From the NCBI GenBank assembly GCA_020054495.1, contig JAHWGK010000024.1:1-40209 (forward strand): a DNA stretch of 40,209 nucleotides. Direction: 5' to 3'. The stretch's first letter is position 1. Each line of letters begins with the position of its first letter. The DNA comes from Thermoplasmata archaeon. Its GTDB lineage: Archaea; Thermoplasmatota; E2; DHVEG-1. The translations under genes were made by a program, and so were the position numbers. The notes beneath the pieces were generated by a model that was not told the origin of the DNA, ran no database searches, and saw only the letters and a program-made list of their open reading frames with translations. Shown here one piece after another: positions 23,556 to 37,858 of this stretch.

Positions 23556-26105
23556 TTATTGATATCCACCGATTTTTAGACTCGGATCACCTAATAGTTG
23601 CCATTGCTGAACTGTTTTTTCATCAATTCCATCCCATCCATAGTCATTTCGCCAATAGTCAAGTTCAAATGTCTTATGATGGGTTATATAGCTAGCTATT
23701 GCCTGACTATATGCCATGCCTAAAAACTTCTGATCTTCTTCTCCATATTGTCTGAAAAACTCGGTGTTTATCCACCCATCTCCAGTTCCAATTGTACACA
23801 CATCGCCTTCTGATCCCCATCCGAATCCTGTATTGCCCATTGTTGCAATAGCACCAGTGTTAGGCATTTTTACCATATACCAGCCCCAACATTCAGAAAT
23901 TGGAGTTCCATAGGTAAACATATAGTTTTGTGTGTATCGGTTCATAATTGCAGGAAGCAAAGATACGCTGAACATGCTGTTATGACAGCCACCAACGCAA
24001 ACTACAGGGAGCTTATCGGTATTTGTTAATTTTTTCATTGGAAAGAGTGGAAAATTAAAAAATGGGAAGTATGGTGATATCATTGTAACCAAGAGTCCAG
24101 CTACTTGGCCATGAACTCTATTTCCAGGTATGCCTGGATAGTGATCTCCCCACCATCCCGGGCTTCCATGCCCCGAGAAATAGGCAAGGCCGTATCCTTT
24201 GCTAAACTCTTCAATTACATCTGCTTGATCAACCCATTTACCATTTGAGGTGAAAACACTGTTTGTATCCCAATCACTGGGCATATAAACTAGGGCTCCT
24301 CCTCTTCCACGTAGAATTTTTTCACCAACAATCCATTCTCCTTCATAGTATGTTTCTGTGTCTTCAAGGTTTACTGTAAATATTGTTGTTCCTTGGTCAT
24401 TTTTTATCCATACTGCTATGTCAGTTAGATTGCCATAGGGTTTTGGATCATAGGATTTACCTCGTATTGTAAGAACTTCATCTAAATATGAGATGTTTGC
24501 ATACCAGTAAAGGTCATTGCAGTATGCTTCTCCACCAGTTGGTATATAGGTATAGTCTGTATTGCCCAGTGTGTTACCATTTGATATAGTCATGATTTCT
24601 GCAATAGGTGGTGCAGGGTAACCGTTTTCTAGTTCGGGTTTAAGATGATCATCATGGTTGAAGGTTATGTCTGTTTCAACTGTTTTATCAAGAGTAATTT
24701 GAATTTCATCAATTGGTCCAGTTTCTTCTTCTGGATTTGAGCTTTGTGCATAAATGGTGTATTCTCCATCTGGTAGACCCTTGGTGTCCCATTGTATATT
24801 CCAATCTTCTTGATCAAGGAATCCGTCTCCAGATATCGCTATTATTCTTTTGAACCAGCTTGGGTCAACTAGTTGTGTTTCATATTTGATAATTTTATTA
24901 ATTACGTCTTTTGCTTCCTGGTTGTTTCTAACTGCAAGTCTTCCAAATGCTACATCGGGATATAGATCAAGTTCATCTCTAAGCTCGTCACCTGACCATT
25001 CAGCAAATATACCGTTTCCATTTGAATCCCAATCATCAAACGTATCATTTAAGCCAGTTTCCTCATTGTATTTGTAGATATCTGCATAGTAAAGATCAGA
25101 AATATAGCCAGGTTCTCCACTGGTAAAATTATAAGTTGGAGCACCATCCCATTGAAAATTAGAATATCTCACGGGGAGATGCCAGCCTGATGATCCATGG
25201 TTTTGATCATCCTTAGCTGGGGCATAAATTAATGATTTTAAACCGCCGAAAAGTAATACATATGTTATTCCCCAATTCAAACCATCGGGGTCAATAGCGT
25301 CATGGATGAATAATTTGATTTCTTCAGGATCATCACGACCAGAGTATTCACTATAAATTTCCTCAGTAGTTTTAAGTATAGTTTTTACTGGTGGGTCTAA
25401 ATTATTTTTATGTTCAACCAGTTCTTGAAGTTCAGTTGAGAATTTCGATGGACTGATGATTACGAGATCATATGTGCTCATCTGCGGGAAATAATTGAAA
25501 TCTAGTTTTTCATAGGTTATTTTTACATCAACTGTTTCAGCAATGATTATTTTTCCTGTTACAGGTTTATACCGCAAGGGGAAAATATTTACAGTAAGGT
25601 GTGTAACACGTTCTGCTTCACCATTCAATCCACAGCCTATATGAACGCTATACCAATCATGTGGGTATAATTCATCGCTATTATAGACCGTCTGATCCTT
25701 TTTAGATTGAATGATAGAATCAGGTCGTGGGGTTAGTGGTAATGGTGCAGATGAGGGTAAAATTTCTTTTGAAATATCTAGTTCTTGGATTCCTGATGGT
25801 TCTGCCTCAACCTTTATGTTGGATACTCCAAAGGGAAGCTCGAATGTTTTAAGCACTCTTGGAATCATTGGTTGCCCCGGGTTCATTAAATATAGTTCTT
25901 CATTTCCAAGGCTCACTTCAACGTAATTATAATCACTATCAACAATTTTTAGTGATGAGACATCAGTTTCTATTATCTCGCTTATGGTCATCTCAGTTGT
26001 GGTCTCTAAGTTTATATTATTCGTCTTTTTTATGTTTGTCGCTAGCGCCCCAAATCCACCTATAACTAATATTCCTACTACTAATATCGGTAGCAATTTC
26101 CTCAT
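23556..26105 (-). CDS. Secreted gingipain-like cysteine peptidase (C25), large form with pro-domain
   Basis: 849 residues. Signal peptide at about 1-23; N-terminal pro-domain to about 210 (LTVNIFPLRYKPVTGKIIIAE, a gingipain propeptide pattern). The C25 core starts at TYDLVIISPSKFSTELQELV. Catalytic His646 (YFSGHGSPGWW) and Cys707 (VVCVGGCHNS) are present. Compared with the second C25 gene in this window, about 190 extra residues are inserted between the RIIAISGDGF strand and the His-bearing region; they include PDGEYTIYAQSSNP and look like an Ig-like beta-domain. The protein ends exactly at GDPSLKIGGYQ, with no sorting or Ig domain after the catalytic fold. GGAGGT lies before the ATG. Confidence 0.92.
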   Translation of the reverse strand: MRKLLPILVVGILVIGGFGALATNIKKTNNINLETTTEMTISEIIETDVSSLKIVDSDYNYVEVSLGNEELYLMNPGQPMIPRVLKTFELPFGVSNIKVEAEPSGIQELDISKEILPSSAPLPLTPRPDSIIQSKKDQTVYNSDELYPHDWYSVHIGCGLNGEAERVTHLTVNIFPLRYKPVTGKIIIAETVDVKITYEKLDFNYFPQMSTYDLVIISPSKFSTELQELVEHKNNLDPPVKTILKTTEEIYSEYSGRDDPEEIKLFIHDAIDPDGLNWGITYVLLFGGLKSLIYAPAKDDQNHGSSGWHLPVRYSNFQWDGAPTYNFTSGEPGYISDLYYADIYKYNEETGLNDTFDDWDSNGNGIFAEWSGDELRDELDLYPDVAFGRLAVRNNQEAKDVINKIIKYETQLVDPSWFKRIIAISGDGFLDQEDWNIQWDTKGLPDGEYTIYAQSSNPEEETGPIDEIQITLDKTVETDITFNHDDHLKPELENGYPAPPIAEIMTISNGNTLGNTDYTYIPTGGEAYCNDLYWYANISYLDEVLTIRGKSYDPKPYGNLTDIAVWIKNDQGTTIFTVNLEDTETYYEGEWIVGEKILRGRGGALVYMPSDWDTNSVFTSNGKWVDQADVIEEFSKGYGLAYFSGHGSPGWWGDHYPGIPGNRVHGQVAGLLVTMISPYFPFFNFPLFPMKKLTNTDKLPVVCVGGCHNSMFSVSLLPAIMNRYTQNYMFTYGTPISECWGWYMVKMPNTGAIATMGNTGFGWGSEGDVCTIGTGDGWINTEFFRQYGEEDQKFLGMAYSQAIASYITHHKTFELDYWRNDYGWDGIDEKTVQQWQLLGDPSLKIGGYQ

Positions 26106-27029: not shown

Positions 27030-27128
27030 TCTGAAGCCTCCTAAGTTCAAGTGTTTTTAGAAGTATTCTATCTGTTATATAGTTTTCTTAGTTTCCAAAT
27101 TAATTGTTTGATTAAAAAAAGGGATTAA

Positions 27129-27201
27129 TGGGCCCGCTGAGATTTGAACTCAAGTCTATACCACCCCAAGGTACAAGGATGCCAAGCTACCCTACGGGCC
27201 C
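27129..27201 (-). tRNA. tRNA-Pro (anticodon GGG)
   Basis: The minus strand folds into a cloverleaf: acceptor GGGCCCG/CGGGCCC with discriminator A, D stem GGGT/ATCC, anticodon stem GTACC/GGTAT around loop TTGGGGT (anticodon GGG), four-base variable region and T stem TTGAG/CTCAG with loop TTCAAAT. No CCA is encoded and there is no intron. A T-rich stretch follows. Confidence 0.95.
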
Positions 27202-27295
27202 AAAAGTGGGATATGCAATAATATTTTCGTTCAAAAACTTATTCTTACATTTTTGGAAAGATTTAATATAATTCTCTAGATGAAGAATAAATCAT

Positions 27296-29514: not shown

Positions 29515-31668
29515 ATGGGAAAAATATATGTAAATAAAGTTAAGGTTTTTGTAGTGATTTTATTATTTATTGGCATTTGTTTTTTACCAAGTAGCTTTGT
29601 ATCATCAACTGCAAATACTCAGTCAATAATCAATGATCAAGATACTCTAAATTTTGCAAGTGAAGGTACAGAATATTGGGCGTTACTTGTTGCTGTTGGT
29701 GTATATGCTGATGATCCTCAGCAGAATCGACCTCTTATGTTAGAAGAAGTGGATGATCTGTATGATGTGCTTCTTCAATCTGGAATTTGGTCTGAAGATC
29801 ACATTAAAGTTATTAAGGGTGAGGATGCAACAGTTTCAAATATTTTTTCTGGTTTAAGATGGTTGGATGAGATGGAAGATGAGGATGATTTTTCATTGGT
29901 GTTTTTTACATCACATGGTGCTCCTCTTAGTTATGATATGTTTCCATTGGATGAAGAAGATGGTGTCGATGAATTTCTTGTAAGTTATTGGGGTTTTGCA
30001 TATCCTGGTCTTTATATAATTGATGATCACTTAAATATCATGTTGAGTCGATTAGAATCTCAGGGGGTTTGTCTTATTGTTGATAGTTGTTACGCTGGAG
30101 GTTTCAATGATCCGCCGTTTTGGAGTAAAAACCACCTAGTTAATTTTCAACCGTTAAAAAAAGAGACAAAAGCTAAGGAATGGATTGAAGGTTTTGGAGG
30201 AGAACTTAGTGGACAGAAACGCGTGGTTTTGATGGCTTCCTGTGAGGATGAATTATCCTATTCTGGTGGTTTTGCTCCTTATTTAATCGATGGATTAAGA
30301 GGATATGCTGATAGCAATATGGATGGAATAATCACTGCAGAAGAAACATTTTATTATTCAGAACCTAGGACAAGCAGACAAAATCCAACTATGTATGATG
30401 GTTATGAAGGTGAACTTCCACTAGTTTATTTGGATGCTCCACGAGAGAATACTATAAATTCGAATAATCAATTGGGAATAACTTGGGAAAAAAATATTGG
30501 TTCGACTTTTAATACTGGATTCTCTCCTGAAAATTCGATTATAAAAGGATATGTAAAGGATGCCAATACAGATGATCCTATTGAAGATGCCTTGATTTAT
30601 ATTTGGGGGATTGGCAATGAATGGGAATTTTTTGAAAATGAAACAACTACAGATATAAATGGTTTTTATAGTATCAATGTTCCATCTTGCAGATGTCGTT
30701 TAACTGTTTATGCAGATGGATATTGTGGTAGTGAATCAGGATTTTTAGAAATTGGAGAAAATGAGCTTTTATGGGTTAACTTTTCTATGTATCCTCATCC
30801 TCCTGAAAATTCTATTGTTTGTGGCTATATTACTGATGAAGATACAGGTGAACCAATTGATGGTGCTAACATTAACCTCTTCTGGGAGGGAGATGCTGAT
30901 CAATTCTATATGAACGACACTGTTTCAGATATTACTGGATATTATTCTATTAATGTTGCGGCAGGTAAAATAAATCTTGAAGTTGAAGCAAATGATTATT
31001 TTCGAAAATATTTAGAGGAAATTAATATTGCAGATTATGAAACACTGTGGGTGAACTTCTCGTTACAACCTCGTCTGCCAGAAGATTCGGTATTAAAGGG
31101 TTATATAACTGATGAAGAAACAGGAAGTCCTATAGATAACGCTCGTGTTAGAATTGAATGGGTAGATATGAATTTAGGACATTCTTACCATAATGAAACC
31201 TATTCAGATTCTTCTGGTTTTTACAGTATTAATATTGCTTCTGGAGAATTATACCTTGATATCCGTAAACAAGGGTATGATTATTATGATCCCTATAGGC
31301 ATGATAACGATGAAACAAATATATTATGGTTCAATATATCTTTAGAAAAGCGAACAATTGAAGTTGATATACTAAAACCATTACGCGCATTTTACATCAA
31401 TAATAACCGATTAATGCCGTATCATAAGGCAAGAATAATTGGACCTATTGATATTGAAGCTGCTGTATATGAAGATTGGTGGGGACAGGGATCAGCAGAA
31501 AAAGTAGAATTTTATGTCGATAATGAGTTAAAAGCAACATTTAGTTCTGAACCTTATATTTGGACATGGAATGAAGTAAAATTTGGTAAACATACAATAA
31601 AAGTTATTGCTTATGACGATGAAGGAATAATTACTAGTAAAGAAATTGAAGTCAATAAATTCCTCTAG
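29515..31668 (+). CDS. Secreted caspase-like (clan CD, C13/C11-like) peptidase with three carboxypeptidase-regulatory-like repeats and Ig-like end
   Basis: 717 residues; signal peptide at about 1-32. The clan CD fold starts with EYWALLVAVGVYADDPQQNR. Catalytic His134 is in VFFTSHGAPLS and Cys192 in CLIVDSCYAGGF, with QKRVVLMASCEDELSYS after it, typical of C13/C14-like archaeal proteases. From about 343 come three about 85-residue CarboxypepD_reg-like beta-domains, each opening with G-Y-[IV]-x-D-x-x-T-x-x-P-I-x-x-A and holding GFYSIN or GYYSIN. The final 100 residues (KVEFYVDNELKATFSSEPYIW, GKHTIKVIAYDDEG) match the end of the papain-like protein at 20261. It likely cleaves extracellular or surface proteins. 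TGGAGGTT precedes the ATG. Confidence 0.88.
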   Translation: MGKIYVNKVKVFVVILLFIGICFLPSSFVSSTANTQSIINDQDTLNFASEGTEYWALLVAVGVYADDPQQNRPLMLEEVDDLYDVLLQSGIWSEDHIKVIKGEDATVSNIFSGLRWLDEMEDEDDFSLVFFTSHGAPLSYDMFPLDEEDGVDEFLVSYWGFAYPGLYIIDDHLNIMLSRLESQGVCLIVDSCYAGGFNDPPFWSKNHLVNFQPLKKETKAKEWIEGFGGELSGQKRVVLMASCEDELSYSGGFAPYLIDGLRGYADSNMDGIITAEETFYYSEPRTSRQNPTMYDGYEGELPLVYLDAPRENTINSNNQLGITWEKNIGSTFNTGFSPENSIIKGYVKDANTDDPIEDALIYIWGIGNEWEFFENETTTDINGFYSINVPSCRCRLTVYADGYCGSESGFLEIGENELLWVNFSMYPHPPENSIVCGYITDEDTGEPIDGANINLFWEGDADQFYMNDTVSDITGYYSINVAAGKINLEVEANDYFRKYLEEINIADYETLWVNFSLQPRLPEDSVLKGYITDEETGSPIDNARVRIEWVDMNLGHSYHNETYSDSSGFYSINIASGELYLDIRKQGYDYYDPYRHDNDETNILWFNISLEKRTIEVDILKPLRAFYINNNRLMPYHKARIIGPIDIEAAVYEDWWGQGSAEKVEFYVDNELKATFSSEPYIWTWNEVKFGKHTIKVIAYDDEGIITSKEIEVNKFL

Positions 31669-32249: not shown

Positions 32250-32774
32250 ATGCTAAAAAGTAAAGGAAAAATAAGTTCCAATGATAAAAAAATACTAGAT
32301 GCATTAATAGAAAATGCACGGCAGTCCTTAATTGAGATTAGCGAAAAAACAGGTATGTCACGTCAGACAGTACAAAAAACAATCAACAGGTTAGAAAAAA
32401 ATGATATTATATGGGGTTACTGTCCAGTTGTTGACTTGAATAAAATTGGAAAAAAACGTTTCGTTATGCTTGTTAAAAGCACCCAAACTCTGACAAGAGA
32501 ACAGACAGTGAATGGTATAGCACAAATAAGAAAGATGATGGATGGAGGAAAAATTGGTGAACTTGTATACTCAGGTTATTATAATGGTCGTTTTGACTGG
32601 ATAATAAATTTTTATACAAAAGATATTGTTCAAGCAAAAAAAATTTTACGAGAATGGAAATTAAGTTTTGAAGATTTTATTGATGAAATTTACTTGCTTG
32701 AGGAATTGTTGACCACTCGTGAATGTAAAATTACGAATCCTGATTACGAACAAGCTATGGCTGAAATTCTATAA
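32250..32774 (+). CDS. Lrp/AsnC-type transcriptional regulator
   Basis: 174 residues. The N-terminal HTH is of AsnC type: SNDKKILDALIENARQSLIEISEKTGMSRQTVQKTINRLEKNDIIWGY. The C-terminal half (KRFVMLVKS, then GYYNGRFDWIINFYTKDIVQAKKILREW) matches the RAM-like effector fold, slightly longer than usual at the C-terminus. Such regulators bind amino acids and control amino-acid or peptide use, which would suit the surrounding protease genes, but the target is not visible. It stands alone with an AT-rich promoter. Confidence 0.85.
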   Translation: MLKSKGKISSNDKKILDALIENARQSLIEISEKTGMSRQTVQKTINRLEKNDIIWGYCPVVDLNKIGKKRFVMLVKSTQTLTREQTVNGIAQIRKMMDGGKIGELVYSGYYNGRFDWIINFYTKDIVQAKKILREWKLSFEDFIDEIYLLEELLTTRECKITNPDYEQAMAEIL

Positions 32775-33582: not shown

Positions 33583-33774
33583 ATGGTTTGTTCTAAATGT
33601 AGAAGAAAAATGTGGATTTGGGATAAAAAGAAGGTAAATGGAATAATTTTTTGCCCACGTTGTTATCAAGAAATAATTGTTGATGAAGAACAACAAAGGT
33701 ATCTTGAAGAATTAGGTCAACAAAGGTATCTTGAAGAATTAGAAAAACAAAAAAAACTTGAGGTTAAACCATAA
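33583..33774 (+). CDS. Small zinc-ribbon protein with a tandem repeat tail
   Basis: 63 residues with a very strong ribosome site (GAGGTGAGGAGG). CSKC at 3-6 and CPRC at 24-27 form a compact zinc ribbon, followed by an acidic link and a charged helix containing the 8-residue unit QQRYLEEL twice (DNA repeat of CAACAAAGGTATCTTGAAGA). It could bind nucleic acid or a protein partner. Function unknown. The first copy of the putative structured RNA cassette begins about 60 bases downstream. Confidence 0.75.
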   Translation: MVCSKCRRKMWIWDKKKVNGIIFCPRCYQEIIVDEEQQRYLEELGQQRYLEELEKQKKLEVKP

Positions 33775-33831
33775 ACCTCTCTCTTTCTTATTTTTTTAAA
33801 CGTAATGAATAAACAGAGAAGAAAACAAGGG

Positions 33832-33870
33832 TTCTGAGAGACCTTCGTGCAATAAGTTTATTTATAAAAA
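33832..33870 (+). promoter_or_regulatory. Promoter of RNA cassette, copy 1
   Basis: 25 bases at 33832-33856 (TTCTGAGAGACCTTCGTGCA and five more) are identical to 37690-37714, then a TATA-like TTTATAAA at 33861-33868. The TATA box lies about 25 bases before the G-run that opens the predicted RNA, the normal archaeal distance. Confidence 0.6.
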
Positions 33871-33887
33871 AATGTTATCCTTTTGAT

Positions 33888-33998
33888 TATGGGGGTCTAG
33901 TACTAGATAAAAGAATGAATTTTTAGTCTATCTAAATTGTCATTTTTTTTCTATCTTCCCAAAGAAAACAACTAGGCCCCTAAACTTTTATTATTTTG
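33888..33998 (+). ncRNA. Putative structured RNA, copy 1
   Basis: GGGGTCTAGT (33892-33901) pairs over ten positions with ACTAGGCCCC (33971-33980), including one G-U. Inside, TTTAG (33922-33926) pairs with CTAAA (33932-33936). A T-rich stretch follows the closing stem. Copy 2 at 37745 keeps both stems with changed bases: the outer stem's G-U becomes A-U and the inner hairpin becomes TAGGT/ACCTA. No ORF is conserved between copies. Ends are estimates from the promoter and T-run. Confidence 0.6.
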
Positions 33999-34110
33999 TT
34001 TTAAAATCTGTTTTGTATTTATTTGTTTTTTTGAATATTTTATAGTAATATTTAATTAATTATATGTAATATCAATTAATTGCAGAAAAAAACTGGGGGT
34101 AGAACTATAT

Positions 34111-35538
34111 ATGACAAATAAATTGTACAGCAAAATATTTTCAATAGGAATAATAATCCTTTTTTTTGGATCAATTATCATTCCAAATATCAATGGCTTT
34201 GTCCAAGACTCTACTATTCCTAATATAATAAATGAGAACTCAGTTGTTTTTTCATCTGGTGTATTTGATTTATTAATAATTGCTCCTTCAAAATTTTCAA
34301 GAGCTCTTAAACCACTTGTTCTTCATAAAAACAAATATGGGGTAAAAACAATTCAAATGGATGTAGAAGATGTTTATGAGCATATGTTTTGGCAAGGACG
34401 AGATAAAGCTGAAAAAATAAAATATTTTATTAAAAATGCCTATGATTATTGGGGGATAAAATATGTTTTACTTGTTGGTGGAAGAAAAAATCAAGGACCA
34501 ATAGAGACATATTGGATTCCAGTAAGATACAGTTATCTGAATAGAAATTATGATAACATGAAAGAAACAAGATTTCTCTGTGATTTATATTTTGCAGACA
34601 TCTATGATAATAATGGATTCTTTTCTAGTTGGGACAATAACAATAACGGCATTTTTGGTGAATGGCCAAAAAATGAGTCTGCACTTGATAAACCAGATTT
34701 ATATCCTGATGTTGCGGTGGGAAGACTTCCCTGTAGAAATATAATTGAAGTAAGAAGAGTTGTTAAAAAAATAATTAAATATGAAACCGGAAAATGTCCT
34801 GATTCTTGGTTTAAAAAAATGATTGTCGTCGCAGGTGATACTTACCCTGAAAAAACAGAATATATTGATGGAGAAGTCTACACACAAGCGGGTCTTGAAA
34901 TAATGAATGATTTCAAACCAGTAAAACTATGGACATCTGATGGGAGTTTAACAGATATTTCAGATGTTATGAAAGAGTTTAACAAAGGTTGTGGTTTTAT
35001 TTGGTTCTCAGGACATGGAAATCCAAGAGTATGGTCTACCCATCCGCCTTATAATTCATCTGTTTGGATAACTGGACTTAAAGTCCCATATATACGATTT
35101 CTTTCAAATAGAGAAAAACTACCAATTTGTATAACTGGAAGTGGATGCTTTAATAGTATGTTTAATATTAGTTTTTTATACGCTCCACGAGTTACTGTTT
35201 TTCCTATTTTACATTGTTTTAGTTGGGCTCTTGTGGTTCAAAAATATGGTGGGTCAATTGCTACAATTGGCTCGACTGCGTTTAGTTATGAAACACCAGA
35301 CATCAATACTGGTTATGGTGGGATAGAATGGCTTGATTTACATTTTTTTGAAGAGTATAAATTAAATGGAACAGATATTTTGGGGAAAACGTGGAGTAAT
35401 ACTATAACGTCATTTTTACAAAATTTTTCGATTGACTGGAATGATGATAGTGCAAGAGGTGCTGCTTTAGTTTGTAAAAATGTTGAACAATGGCTTCTTA
35501 TTGGTGATCCAAGTTTAAAAATTGGTGGTTATCCTTAG
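34111..35538 (+). CDS. Secreted gingipain-like cysteine peptidase (C25), compact form without pro-domain
   Basis: 475 residues; signal peptide at about 1-30 shared at DNA level with the protein at 27646. The mature part opens almost at once with FDLLIIAPSKFSRALKPLVLHKNKYGV, the start of the C25 core, so the roughly 200-residue pro-domain of the larger C25 is missing. Catalytic His302 (WFSGHGNPRVW) and Cys346 (CITGSGCFNS) are kept. It ends at GDPSLKIGGYP, like the other C25. Lack of a pro-domain raises the question of how activity is held back before export. GGGGG lies 11 bases before the ATG. The first RNA cassette lies upstream. Confidence 0.9.
   Translation: MTNKLYSKIFSIGIIILFFGSIIIPNINGFVQDSTIPNIINENSVVFSSGVFDLLIIAPSKFSRALKPLVLHKNKYGVKTIQMDVEDVYEHMFWQGRDKAEKIKYFIKNAYDYWGIKYVLLVGGRKNQGPIETYWIPVRYSYLNRNYDNMKETRFLCDLYFADIYDNNGFFSSWDNNNNGIFGEWPKNESALDKPDLYPDVAVGRLPCRNIIEVRRVVKKIIKYETGKCPDSWFKKMIVVAGDTYPEKTEYIDGEVYTQAGLEIMNDFKPVKLWTSDGSLTDISDVMKEFNKGCGFIWFSGHGNPRVWSTHPPYNSSVWITGLKVPYIRFLSNREKLPICITGSGCFNSMFNISFLYAPRVTVFPILHCFSWALVVQKYGGSIATIGSTAFSYETPDINTGYGGIEWLDLHFFEEYKLNGTDILGKTWSNTITSFLQNFSIDWNDDSARGAALVCKNVEQWLLIGDPSLKIGGYP
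34144..34174 (+). repeat. Signal-peptide DNA repeat, copy B
   Basis: 30 of 31 bases match 27685-27715; both encode the hydrophobic core of a signal peptide. Confidence 0.75.
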
Positions 35539-37671: not shown

Positions 37672-37689
37672 CAAAGAAGGAAACAAGAG

Positions 37690-37726
37690 TTCTGAGAGAC
37701 CTTCGTGCAATAAGCTTATTTAAAAA
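37690..37726 (+). promoter_or_regulatory. Promoter of RNA cassette, copy 2
   Basis: Carries the 25-base block identical to 33832-33856 and a TATA-like TATTTAAA at 37717-37724, about 25 bases before the G-run at 37748. Confidence 0.6.
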
Positions 37727-37744: not shown

Positions 37745-37858
37745 TATGGGGGTCTAATACTGGATAAAAGAATGAATTTTTAGGTTAAACCTACTTTTTC
37801 AATCTTTTTTCCGTCCTTTAAAAATTATTCTAGACCCCATAGGCTTCTATTTTTGTTT
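37745..37858 (+). ncRNA. Putative structured RNA, copy 2
   Basis: GGGGTCTA (37749-37756) pairs with TAGACCCC (37831-37838), and TAGGT (37781-37785) with ACCTA (37789-37793). The segment TGGATAAAAGAATGAATTTT just after the first strand is nearly identical to copy 1, while the stem bases differ in a pairing-preserving way. A T-rich run ends the element at about 37844-37858. Confidence 0.6.

Follow-up and report, generated by a model that had tools for sequence, protein, structure and literature searches.

A family of putative antisense small RNAs complementary to the translation starts of secreted-protein genes in MBG-D-type Thermoplasmatota

Introduction

Very few archaeal small RNAs (sRNAs) are reported to act as regulators (PMC5867862). 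The closest archaeal cases, sRNA162, sRNA154 and sRNA41 of Methanosarcina mazei, are intergenic RNAs that mask the ribosome-binding sites of trans-encoded mRNAs (PMC3510493; PMC5867862). In bacteria, the cuckoo or alpha-r14 sRNAs, for example NfeR1 of Sinorhizobium meliloti, silence many mRNAs at the translation start, mostly those of transport proteins (PMC7143759), and paralogous sRNAs with shared targets are described from Neisseria (PMC5362039). Here we describe an sRNA family of MBG-D-type Thermoplasmatota; archaea of the MBG-D group, which abound in marine sediment, are believed to degrade buried protein via secreted peptidases (PMC6461988).

The family resembles the cuckoo sRNAs in its multi-copy siblings, conserved promoter elements, variable stems and anti-Shine-Dalgarno (anti-SD) motifs, a likeness of organisation and not of homology. 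The alphaproteobacterial RNAs have three hairpins with a short unpaired anti-SD motif in each loop (PMC7143759), whereas the archaeal RNA consists of one clamped hairpin with a single anti-SD, placed outside the loop and joined to an anti-start segment, and shows no sequence relation to them. Membership in the cuckoo/alpha-r14 group is ruled out by the absent three-hairpin architecture and the lack of homology. Archaeal host, intergenic position and predicted masking of ribosome-binding sites are shared with the M. mazei sRNAs, but those were described individually, have a few targets each and belong to hosts of another archaeal class, while the MBG-D-type RNA reaches 23 paralogues per genome with predicted secretome-wide targets. 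Like the Neisseria siblings, its paralogues have shared (here predicted) targets; the Neisseria RNAs, however, are bacterial, comprise two siblings rather than a large family, and are not homologous to the archaeal RNA.

Results

Two copies in the window

Two stretches of the window (the whole 40,209 nt of DNA analysed) had been noticed in the original prediction as copies of one promoter-RNA-terminator cassette, and they do align, in ungapped blocks over promoter and RNA (73 nt at 88% and 61 nt at 90%). The 192-nt span then assigned to the first copy contracts to a mature RNA of about 93 nt (33890-33982), with a predicted 5′ end near 33888-33891. A DNA search of related genomes returned six further copies in the source genome and others in relatives; covariance model R1 was built from six copies and model R2 from 73 matches, and their scores accompany the features below.

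33831..33856, +: upstream block of copy 1, 26 nt, class a promoter element, identical to the block of copy 2
33857..33868, +: TATA box of copy 1 (TTTATTTATAAA), from sequence and positional enrichment over the family
33890..33982, +: copy 1, structured sRNA (R1 90.4 bits, R2 73.4 bits; MFE -31.8 kcal/mol, z -5.6)
33890..33901, +: copy 1 outer stem, 5′ strand (UGGGGGUCUAGU), from covariation and folds
33937..33943, +: copy 1 anti-start segment UUGUCAU, complement of AUGACAA, from target pairing analysis
33951..33961, +: copy 1 anti-SD segment CUAUCUUCCCA (family consensus CUUCCUCCCUC), from family alignment and pairing
33971..33982, +: copy 1 outer stem, 3′ strand (ACUAGGCCCCUA), from covariation and folds
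33987..34003, +: copy 1 T-rich tract, terminator-like, from T4+ run frequency over the family
34111..35538, +: secreted C25 (gingipain-type) peptidase 3′ of copy 1 (Pfam PF01364, 7e-54)
37689..37714, +: upstream block of copy 2, 26 nt, identical to the block of copy 1
37715..37725, +: TATA-like element of copy 2 (CTTATTTAAAA), from sequence
37747..37840, +: copy 2, diverged sibling sRNA (R1 50.2 bits, R2 54.9 bits; z -4.4), with weak target enrichment
37749..37756, +: copy 2 outer stem, 5′ strand, from the fold
37831..37838, +: copy 2 outer stem, 3′ strand, from the fold

The upstream block common to both copies (GTTCTGAGAGACCTTCGTGCAATAAG) is identical, as had been predicted, and measures 26 nt rather than 25; related blocks also lie upstream of copies in genomes G001 and G010. 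The TATA box and the T-rich end were described correctly, the former lying 22-33 nt 5′ of the copy 1 RNA and the latter following it. The outer stem is indeed longer in copy 1 and has 8 bp in copy 2, although 12 bp are predicted for copy 1 instead of 10. Both base exchanges reported between the copies are present: a U-G pair of copy 1 is U-A in copy 2, and the inner hairpin changes from UUUAG/CUAAA to the AGGU/ACCU type with pairing kept. In copy 2, the anti-start CAU has become CAA, and the anti-SD has become CCGUCCUUU.

The window also carries a cluster of exported-protein genes (23556-26105, -; 29515-31668, +; 34111-35538, +), which encode a pair of C25 (gingipain-type) peptidases and, besides these, a protein of 717 aa in which the carboxypeptidase-regulatory repeat occurs three times. 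A tandem duplication of 27 nt (93% identical) occupies 33691-33744 within a 63-aa zinc-ribbon-like ORF (33583-33774), and a tRNA-Pro (ggg) is located at 27128-27202 (-).

Structure and covariation

Both window copies fold better than all of their dinucleotide shuffles (0 of 200 as good). Covariation had been claimed from these two copies, which alone are insufficient for it; the wider family displays it strongly. Both partners vary in 26 of the 28 pairs of the model-fitted alignment, and its covariation score of 0.291 compares with 0.147 for shuffled and at most 0.110 for slid controls. Since a model-fitted alignment leans towards the structure, the pair count was redone on a structure-blind MAFFT alignment, in which 90.4% of cells pair (at most 57.4% when slid) and double changes are found in 11 of 22 pairs. 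De novo RNAalifold on the blind alignment recovers the outer stem only. The outer stem is certain, because both this de novo fold and the structure-blind pair counts support it. The inner hairpin is well supported, if less independently: it is present in folds of single sequences and in the model-fitted alignment, and the pair counts from the blind alignment agree with it.

Copy number and distribution

Instead of the two copies originally claimed, the covariance models find 14-15 in the source genome: 15 places at E<=0.01 when R2 is run on this genome alone, and 14 in the stricter family search. The richest relative has 23 copies (R2). Within one family of MBG-D-type Thermoplasmatota, R2 has matches in 30 of 45 genomes, representing 14 of 23 genera, and in a sample of 293 genomes from the phylum the 27 with matches at E<=0.001 all belong to that family, with no model matches outside it at this threshold. 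An exact-pattern scan of named genomes recovered mostly MAGs of Thermoplasmatales or Candidatus Thermoplasmatota, among them SG8-52-3, listed as MBG-D (Thermoprofundales) in PMC6461988. In viral contigs the pattern matched 13 times, and none of these chance matches was confirmed by the covariance model.

Rfam 15 has no match in the window (the permissive best hits on the locus, 18.5 and 15.4 bits, are far below gathering), and our literature search of open-licence papers found no paper on this RNA. Covariance-model searching of Thermoplasmatota genomes returned many further homologues with covarying stems, and the notion of an undescribed RNA family has held up.

Promoters, ends and neighbourhood

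Over a set of 76 distinct copies, the best TATA-like 8-mer begins between -34 and -24 in 43.9 against an expected 13.5, an enrichment of about threefold. A T4+ run follows within 40 nt of the RNA in 53 of 61 distinct copies, compared with a frequency of 0.34-0.43 in intergenic 40-mers. Neighbouring genes differ from copy to copy and take either orientation; for several, the gene that follows is encoded on the opposite strand, unlike the constant position upstream of a co-oriented gene expected of a leader. The TATA box at a fixed distance, the T-rich end and the oppositely oriented neighbours of some copies support the proposal that the RNA has its own promoter, and, together with the Rfam result and the covarying homologues, the original interpretation of the element as a hitherto undescribed family of small RNAs in Thermoplasmatota. 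Each locus appears from these signals to be a free-standing sRNA transcription unit. Some loci have both flanking genes conserved between species. Most copies in genomes G000, G010, G028 and G034 have co-oriented genes on both sides, and a gene for a secreted protein often follows at a distance of 60-160 nt.

Three promoter types recur across the genomes: the AATAAGTTTATC type, to which the window belongs, the AGAAAATTATATATCATAG type, and a type with the palindrome TTAACNNNNGTTAA. The palindrome is found between TATA box and start in nine sRNA copies (G000, G010, G028, G034, G002), and also within 180 nt upstream of 31 of 332 secreted genes versus 7 of 464 others (p=3e-7); it is rare or absent in G007 and G023. 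It probably serves as operator for a single common regulator. Lrp/AsnC-like regulators, assigned from sequence only, are found repeatedly next to sRNA copies (window 32250-32774, +; C155 and C169 in G000; two loci in G007; C226 in G005) and are candidate regulators of the sRNA promoters.

At the G010 loci L094-L111, the upstream secreted proteins end in a conserved tail, IPRxRATxxPLFxxFLERFPxLERLLxLLR, and in about ten loci the stop codon of the upstream gene lies almost exactly 35 nt before the sRNA. The tail looks like an undescribed C-terminal sorting signal adjoining the sRNA promoter.

Complementarity to translation starts

The 3′ half of the sRNA, UUUUUCAU-N8-9-CUUCCUCCCUCA, is the reverse complement of a translation start of the form UGAGGGAGG-spacer-AUGAAAA: in many copies the hairpin ends with CUUCCUCCCUCA, and the inner 3′ strand has UUUUUCAU 8-9 nt earlier. 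This anti-ribosome-binding-site half, which hints at function, had been missed in the original prediction together with the multi-copy nature of the element.

Predicted duplexes from anti-SD to anti-AUG reach -25 to -31 kcal/mol. They include -30.7 kcal/mol for sRNA C226 with the start of a PKD-domain protein (547 aa, G000 C66; GUUGAGGGAGGUAGAAAAGUAUGGU), -27 to -28.5 kcal/mol for C178 and several AAUGGGAGGUAGGAAAAAAUGAA-type starts, and -27 kcal/mol for copy 1 with the start of a secreted phosphoesterase. The inner hairpin sequesters some of the pairing segment, and opening it costs 10-14 kcal/mol; strong pairs retain a net -10 to -17 kcal/mol after hairpin opening with the outer clamp intact. 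When C226 was scanned against 91,768 windows of a 390-kb genome sample, 11 of its 27 best non-self sites were translation starts, though starts make up 3.4% of the windows (p=6e-10); shuffled sequences gave 1-5 starts out of 30. C178, C66 and copy 1, variants special to the source genome, match translation starts in that genome better than they match the starts of G010. The complementarity to ribosome-binding sites of candidate targets that marks archaeal trans-acting sRNAs is present.

The anti-start UUGUCAU of copy 1 complements the AUGACAA that begins the next gene, and pairing with this C25 peptidase start (34111) is predicted at a moderate -18.1 kcal/mol, net -5.4 kcal/mol; the peptidase (34111..35538) is a possible weak target of copy 1. 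Across the family, RNAs match their own downstream gene no better than other RNAs do (G010, p=0.16). Copy 2, without the CAU and CCUCCC segments, has little target preference, and several other weaker copies match starts poorly.

A possible Shine-Dalgarno dialect of secreted genes

The 16S rRNA of the source genome ends in GGAUCACCUCCU, which explains GGAGG and not the GA.G extension; ribosome pairing thus does not require the G and A that precede GGAGG. In samples of about 390-400 kb from each of three RNA-bearing genomes, GGGAGG sites precede genes with signal-peptide-like N-termini and other genes in a ratio of 71:9, as opposed to 38:37 for other GGAGG sites (p=1.9e-7); with one protein per single-linkage cluster the bias is weaker (16:9 versus 17:33, p=0.025). 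For GAGGGAGG sites the secreted-to-other ratio is 27:2 (p=0.003). The positional SD consensus in G010 and G034 is T-G/A-A-G-GGAGG. No GGGAGG bias towards secreted genes was seen in G007, whose RNAs read CCUCCU, or in a small sample of the RNA-less G023.

Counted genome-wide with the antisense matches of the RNA itself removed, the ratio of GAGGGAGG..ATG to GAAGGAGG..ATG is 1.6-3.8 in genera g1 and g10 and in G005 and G002, and has a median of about 0.45 in RNA-less genomes. Genomes with two or more CCUCCC copies differ from RNA-less ones in the GAGGGAGG..ATG ratio (p=0.012), where the high-ratio genomes fall in about four lineages and amount to few independent points. In genera g7 and g4, which carry the RNA, GAGGGAGG is not in excess. 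Secreted genes have stronger SD sites in general, also as measured against the 16S tail itself, and shuffled C/U-rich sRNA segments mildly prefer secreted starts too, which makes the preference only partly sequence-specific. The statistics come from samples of roughly 55-400 kb per genome, in which signal peptides were recognised by a simple rule based on hydrophobicity and genes by one based on ORFs.

Discussion

The family, its structure and covariation, the promoter position, the complementarity and the enrichment at secreted-gene starts were established by computation. We class it as a new RNA family, probably of a known kind, the trans-acting antisense sRNA, unusual in its copy number, its host and its mirroring of whole translation starts. 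We consider it likely that these RNAs are siblings that repress translation of the secretome; copy 1 of the window fits this reading, and copy 2 is diverged. Every locus would then be an independent sRNA gene: transcription from its own TATA promoter would end at the T-rich tract and yield an RNA of about 80-93 nt. A stem of 9-12 bp (GGGGUCUAG/CUAGACCCC) clamps the ends and encloses a hairpin and, after it, a short single-stranded stretch, UCCCUCA. Together, this single strand and the 3′ side of the hairpin (UUUUUCAU-N8-9-CUUCCUCCCUCA) are antisense to the SD sequence UGAGGGAGG, the spacer, the AUG and the first Lys codons. With the single strand acting as a toehold, the inner hairpin could open into a duplex of about 20 bp over the ribosome-binding site and start codon, which would block translation of exported-protein mRNAs, those of extracellular peptidases included. 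Such transcription, duplex formation in the cell and repression are what we infer, the last because masking of the ribosome-binding site has this outcome in known archaeal sRNAs (sRNA162, PMC3510493; sRNA154 and sRNA41, PMC5867862). As the paralogues differ in promoter and pairing segment, siblings may act at different times and prefer different subsets of targets.

The frequent presence of a secreted gene shortly downstream in four genomes, and the fit of copy 1 to the AUGACAA of the gene that follows it, could instead indicate a cis-acting leader or attenuator, that is, a 5′ UTR controlling only the adjoining surface-protein gene. We hold this to be quite improbable: many copies have the next gene far away or on the opposite strand, most RNAs are followed by a T-rich tract, and the gene downstream is matched no better than others. 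An sRNA with another job, such as protein binding or mimicry of the 16S tail through CCUCC, would make the match to secreted starts a by-product of their strong SD sites. The CCUCC common to the RNA and the 16S tail, the mild preference of shuffled sequences for secreted starts and the persistence of the RNA in g7 and g4 without the extended-motif excess are in keeping with such a role. It is nevertheless unlikely, given that the complement extends to the UGAG upstream of GGAGG and to the AUG and A-rich codons downstream, which the 16S tail leaves unexplained, and that lineage-specific variants match lineage-specific starts.

Being short, intergenic, multi-copy and bounded by an inverted repeat, the element also recalls a mobile palindromic repeat of the MITE type, in which the outer stem would be a terminal inverted repeat and the RNA would have no function. 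This is highly implausible: copies are diverged within a genome, in nearly all pairs both partners vary, and the position of the TATA box is kept, as is the T tract. At some loci, moreover, different species have both flanking genes in common, which makes the insertions old and fixed, and no copies were recognised in viral contigs.

The reading as sibling antisense sRNAs can be taken one step further, to a proposal whose chances we judge to be even. A pool of up to about two dozen siblings mirroring whole translation starts, and tied to their targets by a shared operator, may form a dedicated control layer for exported enzymes, in which pairing segments and ribosome-binding sites co-evolve and secreted genes come to carry the SD dialect UGAGGGAGG. 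If true, such a secretome-wide sRNA layer would provide a concrete, testable mechanism for switching protein breakdown by secreted peptidases. It would also add a large family of anti-SD siblings to the archaeal sRNAs, and would be a natural example of an sRNA evolving jointly with its regulon's Shine-Dalgarno sequences.
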